Part shown: positions 18,133 through 20,127 of the stretch, piece after piece | Layout: each line of letters starts with the position of its first letter | Position numbering within the stretch: position 1 is the first letter of the stretch | Origin: Bacillota bacterium | Lineage (GTDB): Bacteria; Bacillota; UBA4882; UBA8346 | Direction: 5' to 3' | DNA length: 33,399 nucleotides | Assembly: GCA_012735315.1 (NCBI GenBank) | Contig: JAAYHS010000090.1 | Coordinates: forward strand, 1 to 33,399 | Position numbers and translations under genes: made by a program | The notes under the pieces: generated by a model | What the model saw: only the letters and a program-made list of their open reading frames with translations | Told to the model about the DNA's origin: nothing | The model's database searches: none

Positions 18133-18162
18133 TTGACTATTAGTCGCAGTTTATGTTATAAT
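18133..18162 (+). promoter_or_regulatory. Consensus sigma-A promoter of the riboswitch-dapB unit
   Basis: TTGACT (18133-18138) and TATAAT (18157-18162) are 18 bases apart, placing transcription start near 18169, just upstream of the riboswitch. Confidence 0.8.
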
Positions 18163-18183
18163 TTAATCAATTCCATATATTAT

Positions 18184-18325
18184 CTTCCTGTTACGCTTAA
18201 TCTCTTGAAAAAGAGAACGGGGGAACCAGTTTTTTGGGGTGAATTACCATGTTGGTCATGGTATAGGGTTACTCAAGCGACCCGAACCCGGCAGCTAACT
18301 TCGTCAGCGTTGCATGAGATGGAAG
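18184..18325 (+). ncRNA. Cyclic di-AMP riboswitch (ydaO/yuaA type)
   Basis: The stretch matches the ydaO/yuaA aptamer by its conserved blocks in the right order: CGCTTAATCTCTTGAAAAAG (18194-18213), AACGGGGGAACC (18216-18227), TTGGGGTGAATT (18234-18245), a variable hairpin ACCATG/CATGGT (18246-18262), CTCAAGCGACCCGAACCCGG (18272-18291), CAGCTAACTTCGTCAGCG (18292-18309) and GAGATGGAAG at the end. The outer stem CTTCC (18184-18188) / GGAAG (18321-18325) can form. In known examples, c-di-AMP binding stabilises the aptamer and turns the downstream gene off. Recognition is from recall of the motif, without a covariance search. Confidence 0.88.
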
Positions 18326-18344
18326 CATGGTTTAATCATAACCG

Positions 18345-18372
18345 ACCATGGATCCTCCATGGTTATTTTTTT
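18345..18372 (+). terminator. Riboswitch expression-platform terminator
   Basis: ACCATGGA (18345-18352) pairs exactly with TCCATGGT (18356-18363) around a 3-base loop, followed by A and seven T (18366-18372). CATGGT at 18326-18331, just after the aptamer closing stem, could instead pair with ACCATG (18345-18350) as an antiterminator. The two structures are mutually exclusive, which fits ligand-induced termination. Confidence 0.85.
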
Positions 18373-18396
18373 CAAAAAGTTCCGGAGGTGTTGTCA

Positions 18397-19236
18397 ATGG
18401 TGAGGACCTGCTTACTTGGACTTGGGAGAACCGGGAAGGTTGTAGCCGAAGAATTGTTAATGTCCCGGGAATTTGATTTGGTTTCCGTGATCACCAGACC
18501 CGGCAGCAAAAAAGCGAATCGGTCCTTAAGAGAATTGGCGAATATTAATAGTGATTTGAAGGCTGTTAGCGCCGAGAAATTGACCGAAGAGATCCGGAAA
18601 AAGAAATTCACCTTGGCGATTGATTTTTCCACGCCCGACGCCTGTCTAAAAAATGCGCAGATTTTAGCCGAACACGGCGTCCAAATCGTCGTCGGAACCA
18701 CCGGTTTCAATAAACTCCAGGTTTACGAATTAAAAAGAATAGCCCAACGCTATAAAATCGGAATGGTCTATGCTCCTAATATTTCCGTGGGCATCAATGC
18801 CTTGCTATATATAGCCAAAGCATTGGCCCGGATGACCCCTGAGTATGATGTGGAAATTATGGAGTCGCACCACCGCAATAAGGCCGACTCTCCCTCGGGA
18901 ACCGCGCTTAAAATAGCCGCCGCCATTCATCACGAAAAGGGAATCCAGGAGCAAAAGCTCGTTTACGGCAGAAGAGGAGCGACCCATAGAGACGCCGCCG
19001 AGATCGGGGTTCACGCCGTCCGGGCGGGGGGAATAACCGGTGTTCATCGGGTGTTGTTTGCCGGAGAACATGACGAAATCGAAATTATCCATCGCTCTTA
19101 TTCCCGTAAAGTATTCGCCGAAGGAGCGCTGCTGGCGGCCAAATTTATTCTGAACCGAAGAGGGTTTTTCTCAATGGAAGAGGTCTTGGCATATGAAGAA
19201 AAAGATGAGGCGGAACCGGTTGAAGGTTCGGCATAA
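18397..19236 (+). CDS. dapB: 4-hydroxy-tetrahydrodipicolinate reductase
   Basis: DapB reduces the DapA product with NAD(P)H in the lysine/diaminopimelate branch, which also leads to spore dipicolinate. The protein is 279 residues from ATG 18397, which follows GGAGGTG (18384-18390). The open frame extends upstream to 18133, but that part covers the promoter and riboswitch and cannot be coding. The N-terminal Rossmann motif is LLGLGRTGKVV, a slightly unusual GxGRTG in place of GxxGRMG. VVGTTGF and APNISVG follow. The catalytic segment is ESHHRNKADSPSGTA, with His158, His159 and Lys162 at nearly the same positions as the E. coli active-site residues. No other lysine gene is adjacent. Confidence 0.93.
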   Translation: MVRTCLLGLGRTGKVVAEELLMSREFDLVSVITRPGSKKANRSLRELANINSDLKAVSAEKLTEEIRKKKFTLAIDFSTPDACLKNAQILAEHGVQIVVGTTGFNKLQVYELKRIAQRYKIGMVYAPNISVGINALLYIAKALARMTPEYDVEIMESHHRNKADSPSGTALKIAAAIHHEKGIQEQKLVYGRRGATHRDAAEIGVHAVRAGGITGVHRVLFAGEHDEIEIIHRSYSRKVFAEGALLAAKFILNRRGFFSMEEVLAYEEKDEAEPVEGSA

Positions 19237-19461: not shown

Positions 19462-20127
19462 ATGATGCGCAAACTAATCACGGTAATCATCGCAACCCTC
19501 ATTCTATCTCTTTCCGGATCATTGGTCGCTCGCGGCGGCTCCTATTCCCTGGAAGCTGAAAACGGCAAAATAAACGCGCCGGCTGGTCTGGGTTTTGAGG
19601 TTAAAACTAATTTTAGGGATGAGCAAAACTTTTCTTTCGCCTCAATACCGGTTACCGCAAAACTCAGTTACGGGATCCGCCCCTCGGTTACTATTAGCGG
19701 CGAAGTAAGCCGCAACGGAGAGGAGGACCCGCGGATGCTTCTGAAAGGCTACTATAGTCCTTCGCGTTCATCGCTGGGTTACACGGCCTATTTGGGGTAT
19801 GATTTTAGCGCGGCGGAGATTCCCATGTACGGTGTTTCGGTATGGCTGGCTTCAGATCAACTTTATGGTTTTATTAACTTCGAAGCTGATCAGGCCGCGG
19901 ATGATACCGCCCTAACGGTTACACCCGGCGTAAACTTTGGGCTTGGTTCTAAAATCAGATTGGCCGGCGAAGTGGGATACGACATTATTAATAAAGGGTA
20001 TAAAGAAGTAAGGCTGGGCGCAAGTTATGAATTGGTAGACAACTTTAACATCAAAATAGGCGTTGCCGCCGGTTTTGAAGAGGATGCCGAACGGGTTTAT
20101 ACCACCGGTTTGGCGATGGAGATCTAA
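19462..20127 (+). CDS. Exported beta-barrel-like protein, possible outer-membrane protein
   Basis: The protein is 221 residues. A signal peptide is clear: MMRKL, then the hydrophobic ITVIIATLILSLSGSL and a probable cleavage near residues 23-26 (VARGG). The mature part is built of alternating short strands with aromatic and Gly/Ser residues (for example AKLSYGIRPSVTISGEVS, SLGYTAYLGYDF, VRLGASYELVDNFNIKIGVAAGF), and ends in a strand GLAMEI. This looks like an 8-10-stranded small outer-membrane barrel, though the final aromatic residue of classical barrels is absent. AAAGGAG precedes ATG 19462 by 8 bases. It is a single-gene unit with its own terminator. I do not recognise a specific family. 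If correct it implies a diderm cell envelope. Confidence 0.65.
   Translation: MMRKLITVIIATLILSLSGSLVARGGSYSLEAENGKINAPAGLGFEVKTNFRDEQNFSFASIPVTAKLSYGIRPSVTISGEVSRNGEEDPRMLLKGYYSPSRSSLGYTAYLGYDFSAAEIPMYGVSVWLASDQLYGFINFEADQAADDTALTVTPGVNFGLGSKIRLAGEVGYDIINKGYKEVRLGASYELVDNFNIKIGVAAGFEEDAERVYTTGLAMEI

Follow-up and report, generated by a model that had tools for sequence, protein, structure and literature searches.

A c-di-AMP riboswitch ahead of a second dapB gene in a Bacillota bacterium

The switch and the dapB-family gene behind it

The window, a stretch of 33,399 nucleotides from a Bacillota bacterium (GCA_012735315.1, contig JAAYHS010000090.1), carries a promoter, a c-di-AMP riboswitch and a second dapB, here called dapB2, in series on the forward strand. 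All three fall inside positions 18133–19236, the interval marked in the original prediction, which is to be read as promoter, leader and gene rather than as one gene, since the open frame that spans it was set mechanically from a TTG and takes in the leader. In a covariance-model search, the aptamer (18184–18325, +) matched the c-di-AMP (ydaO/yuaA) family RF00379 at 98.3 bits (E 2.3e-22), against a gathering score of 38, over the full model (1–134) and without truncation. The predicted c-di-AMP riboswitch before a dapB-family gene is thus borne out by the very covariance-model check proposed for the leader, and we regard the switch as confirmed. It is the sole Rfam match within the window, and the 2.95 Mb assembly gave no second RF00379 match. 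The aptamer is a putative c-di-AMP binder, and the genome encodes a single diadenylate cyclase domain, so c-di-AMP can be made.

The promoter is of sigma-70 type and near consensus (18133–18162, +; TTGACT-18-TATAAT, with TG before the second hexamer and 11 of 12 matches), and is the top-scoring of three promoter-like sites around the leader. A similar TTGACT...TATAAT is present in the leader of the sister species (G001), and as classes, promoter-like and terminator-like sites were no more numerous than in shuffled sequence. Between aptamer and gene lies an expression platform, in which a stem at 18344–18364, followed by ATTTTTTT, was recognized by folding and by a terminator scan as an intrinsic terminator with a U-tract reaching to about 18371 (18344–18371, +). 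The ribosome-binding site GGAGGT (18384–18389, +) follows. Constrained folding also suggests that CUUCC (18184–18188, +) could be the 5′ side of a P1 extension, with GGAAG (18321–18325) as its partner. As in the RF00379 class at large, a full-length aptamer is combined with a transcription-terminator platform, but here the gene controlled codes for a DapB paralogue and not for a transporter or a cell-wall hydrolase.

The proposed 5′ side of an antiterminator (18316–18332, +; GAG..GGA..CAUGGUU), placed by constrained folding and comparison by eye, is complementary to the left arm and loop of the terminator, the putative partners being GGAAGCAUGG and CCAUGGAUCC. Read by eye, most family leaders have a CAUGG 3′ of the aptamer that is complementary to CCAUG in the left arm of the terminator, and often a GAGG-type element facing CCUC of the terminator loop. 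Because the CAUGG/CCAUG pairs show no covariation across the family leaders, and a crude duplex-energy test on part of these leaders did not separate the pairing from shuffles, a mutually exclusive antiterminator is plausible rather than demonstrated. Terminators stand 3′ of the aptamer in most DapB2 leaders, with no clear terminator in the L103 leader. The dapB2 leader of genome G008 (L089:1952-2852) keeps its aptamer and has no recognizable terminator. Since White et al. 2022 (PMC9337991) report, for the homologous c-di-AMP riboswitch of Dehalobacter ablA, ligand-dependent termination at high ligand in in vitro transcription, and describe an alternative pairing of matching kind, OFF at high c-di-AMP is likely to be the direction here as well, and with its terminator 3′ of the aptamer the platform does look like the OFF switch that had been predicted. 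When c-di-AMP is abundant, the aptamer would fold, the terminator would form, and transcription would end at about 18371; when c-di-AMP falls, the antiterminator would form instead and dapB2 would be transcribed alone. c-di-AMP is thought to drop under osmotic stress.

The coding region of dapB2 (18397–19236, +) starts at the ATG at 18397, behind GGAGGT, and domain, tree, and alignment data identify its product as a DapB paralogue. DapB2 carries both DapB_N and DapB_C, scores 231.5 bits against TIGR00036 (the NCBIfam dapB equivalog; cut-off 122), and in phmmer reaches 156 bits against solved DapB structures. The catalytic and substrate motif HHxxKxDxPSGT is complete in the window’s protein, as ESHHRNKADSPSGTA, and most DapB2 keep the 4-hydroxy-tetrahydrodipicolinate (HTPA)-binding motif HHxxKxDxPSGTA whole; in three DapB2 proteins of the window’s family, Cys replaces the first His. 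While both domains and the substrate-site motif are shared with DapB as represented by TIGR00036 and by PDB 4f3y and 1arz, the nucleotide loop of DapB2 is one residue shorter (GxGxxG, in the family form GLG[KR]TG), and position 38 (E. coli numbering) carries no acidic residue. The window’s protein has the loop GL-GRTG and a T at position 38, in place of GxxGxMG and an acidic residue, which are usual in DapB and not required, cofactor use varying within the family. All 29 DapB2 sequences have another residue there, whereas 30 of 31 DapB1 have the acidic one. In E. coli DapB, E38 is the acidic residue for the NADH ribose, and by analogy with that enzyme DapB2 is probably NADPH-preferring. Because the equivalog cut-off is exceeded by more than 100 bits, we read the altered loop and position 38 as a change of cofactor, and DapB2 as a putative second HTPA reductase.

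Distribution of the riboswitch–dapB2 pairing

Riboswitch and dapB coordinates were compared in 61 genomes, ten of them from the window’s family. Among the 76 RF00379 matches, 20 lie in this family, and nine of these 20 stand just upstream of, and on the same strand as, a dapB; the nine genes are all of the family’s DapB2 genes, and the pairs occur in eight of its ten genomes. No other dapB in the 61 genomes, every DapB1 included, lies near an RF00379 match. A survey of dapB leaders in related genomes, as had been advised, therefore finds the same riboswitch before 9/9 DapB2 of the family and before no DapB1. DapB2 relatives in named genomes, Clostridia among them, were gathered by protein alone, and scanned for the riboswitch afterwards: RF00379 was found upstream at 14 of the best 20 loci (three members of the window’s family among them). 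The other DapB whose loci were scanned, chiefly those of Proteobacteria but also of further phyla, had none.

A tree of 60 DapB proteins gathers the 21 riboswitch-linked rows, without exception, in a single DapB2 clade of 29 rows (support 98/94), which extends into Clostridia. Riboswitch presence changes state four times on this tree, most simply by one gain and three losses, and a search down to E 0.5 found no weak or different RNA element that would explain the riboswitch-less DapB2 leaders of Clostridium. Of the two DapB2 genes in one genome of the sample (G007), one is of the Clostridia type, which points to a joint transfer of gene and riboswitch. At least one further dapB-family gene is present in 16 of the 17 Clostridia genomes with DapB2, and in nearly all genomes with such a further gene, one falls in the canonical DapB1 branches of the tree. 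The riboswitch–dapB2 pairing thus recurs across many anaerobic Bacillota.

Paralogues, operon partners, and other targets

The window’s genome has three dapB-family genes, the highest-scoring of which is DapB1 (contig 43), with a lysine riboswitch (RF00168) upstream and the operon order dapB1, dpaA, dpaB, aspartokinase, dapA. The original prediction that the switch controls dapB holds for the gene family; however, the tree and the three family genes place the target as the paralogue DapB2, and not as the genome’s main dapB. In both cases a riboswitch precedes a dapB-family gene, but ligand and paralogue differ, and dapB1 heads a multi-gene operon whereas dapB2 makes up a unit by itself. Of the lysine-pathway enzymes in this genome, DapB2 alone is placed under c-di-AMP. 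Since dapA is found once, inside the lysine-riboswitch operon, DapB2 alone cannot bypass lysine repression. DapB is usually not the flux-controlling step. A surplus of DapB can increase flux only as long as the lysine-controlled operon is on, for example when lysine is being consumed, and DapB2 would either act together with a lysine drain or have a somewhat different role. The third member, DapB3 (L091:7494-8342 and L092:7149-7997), is derived from DapB2 within the window’s genus and is an open frame in two genomes; it is without the catalytic HHxxK motif and without a riboswitch, and is possibly a pseudoenzyme.

The riboswitch, dapB2, ablA (lysine 2,3-aminomutase) and ablB (beta-lysine N-acetyltransferase), the latter two being the genes for the osmolyte N-acetyl-beta-lysine, stand in series in Clostridium weizhouense, Pseudobacteroides cellulosolvens, and a Desulfitobacteriaceae MAG. 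In Pseudobacteroides a Na+ riboswitch is placed in tandem in front of the c-di-AMP riboswitch. The order in another genome (G062) is dapB2, an amino-acid ABC transporter, ablA-ablB, and in G007, ablA-ablB lies about 3 kb downstream of dapB2. In the window’s genome we found no ablB and no full-score ablA, only a KamA-family gene below the AblA cut-off, so beta-lysine as the end product is unsupported there, and this end point does not apply to it. The KamA-family aminomutase gene (L214:6339-8521) is directly followed by a D-Ala-D-Ala-ligase-like ATP-grasp gene, and the same pair occurs in G001.

Two further targets of c-di-AMP riboswitches in the window’s family fit osmotic adaptation, a KimA-like permease and a TreT-like trehalose synthase. 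The TreT-like case is from the sister species G001 (L034:663-1883). Two targets in the family are unexplained, namely the genes for asparagine synthase B and for an octopine/nopaline-dehydrogenase-like protein (L037:613-2085, L038:989-2650, L046:1504-2598, L039:3265-4350, L042:491-1576), both of which occur in G007, where asparagine synthase B is in pieces. A SulP-type transporter gene follows the riboswitch in other families of the class (L014, L021, L022, L024, L028), the transporter being named by family search for one locus and by sequence likeness for the other four. A gene for a PBP5-type D-Ala-D-Ala carboxypeptidase adjoins dapB2 in several Clostridia lineages (L209, L216-L219, L221, L222). 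In the window, the gene after dapB2 (19462–20127) has a weak likeness, below the Pfam cut-off, to outer-membrane beta-barrels, which hints at a two-membrane member of the Bacillota; relatives of this gene lie near dapB2 in G001 and G002.

Physiological role and meaning

We consider it reasonably probable that the leader works as an OFF switch for c-di-AMP, letting a DapB isozyme with regulation of its own be expressed once osmotic stress lowers c-di-AMP. The sequence data establish the aptamer, the terminator, the identity and paralogy of the gene, its conserved pairing with the riboswitch and the operon links; the OFF direction, the osmotic trigger, and the activity, cofactor preference and end product of DapB2 are what we infer. 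Regulated separately from the lysine-riboswitch operon, DapB2 would raise flux to tetrahydrodipicolinate, and from there to diaminopimelate and lysine, in osmotic adaptation. In relatives with ablA and ablB, the lysine would feed N-epsilon-acetyl-beta-lysine, a compatible solute. In the window’s genome, where ablB and a full-score ablA are both missing, the useful product may be diaminopimelate for the cell wall, lysine, or another derivative.

It is this gap in the window’s genome that speaks for a role of DapB2 mainly in the cell wall, in which low c-di-AMP would bring more diaminopimelate for peptidoglycan synthesis or repair under turgor stress, rather than osmolytes. The carboxypeptidase genes adjoining dapB2 at 6 to 7 Clostridia loci point the same way, as does the peptidoglycan reading that White et al. 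2022 (PMC9337991) suggest for Acetivibrio. However, the carboxypeptidase is often convergent and outside the dapB2 transcript, and the direct operon links in several genomes are to ablA and ablB; we judge a mainly cell-wall role unlikely, although deserving of some weight. A broader supply role, in which the riboswitch ties dipicolinate and general diaminopimelate and lysine supply to c-di-AMP, dapB being a pathway gene, draws on the family membership of the target and on the dipicolinate synthase genes of the genome, which may accordingly sporulate. But dpaA and dpaB share the lysine-riboswitch operon of dapB1, which links dipicolinate synthesis to DapB1 and lysine, while dapB2 stands on its own. 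The predicted tie between dipicolinate supply and c-di-AMP finds no support in this arrangement, dipicolinate supply is rejected as the purpose of dapB2, and the broader supply role as a whole is very improbable.

The altered dinucleotide loop (GLG[KR]TG) with its lost acidic cofactor residue, the derived sister DapB3 lacking the catalytic motif, and the fact that the dapB2-ablA-ablB operons hold no lysine-pathway gene besides dapB2 could all be taken to mean that DapB2 is DapB by annotation only, and has shifted to another substrate, an HTPA-related cyclic imine, in osmolyte metabolism. We find such a shift improbable, as the HTPA-binding motif is intact in most DapB2, and both the phmmer matches to authentic DapB structures and the TIGR00036 score, well above its cut-off, argue against it. 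Least credible of all is that the aptamer is a relic whose regulation has been lost: while some DapB2 genes have lost the riboswitch (a five-member Clostridium group, L099, and DapB3), the aptamer in the window scores 98 bits over the full model, compensatory differences between G000 and G001 were read by eye in one aptamer stem, and promoter, terminator, and ribosome-binding site are all in place.

The original prediction presented dapB as a notable new target of this riboswitch class. It does differ from the transporter and hydrolase targets, but the pairing is already published, as White et al. 2022 (PMC9337991) report tandem Na+ and c-di-AMP riboswitches on dapB of Acetivibrio cellulolyticus, read as an osmotic stress response. 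Those tandem systems, on Acetivibrio cellulolyticus dapB and Dehalobacter sp. CF ablA, resemble the present one in the c-di-AMP riboswitch before dapB, the OFF logic, and the link to lysine-derived osmolytes, whereas the window has no Na+ riboswitch, and the accessible text of that paper describes no separate dapB paralogue clade and no dapB joined to ablA-ablB. In the main text of the papers searched, we likewise found no separate DapB clade and no c-di-AMP-controlled dapB-ablA-ablB operons. The paralogue clade, the division between two riboswitches, and the dapB2-ablA-ablB operons therefore appear to be new.

More tentatively, and with somewhat less than even confidence, we propose that DapB2 is an anciently separated isozyme clade of at least two Bacillota lineages, spread in part horizontally, that serves as a c-di-AMP-gated (and in some cases also Na+-gated) dedicated osmotic-response enzyme regulated separately from the lysine-riboswitch copy, and is linked, in several genomes, to the making of beta-lysine osmolytes. 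The function of this previously unrecognized DapB clade becomes directly testable. If our reading is true, these bacteria would hold one lysine-pathway enzyme in duplicate, with a different riboswitch over each copy, one answering to the end product of the pathway and the other to an osmotic second messenger, and a concrete route would lead from c-di-AMP to amino-acid-derived osmolytes.
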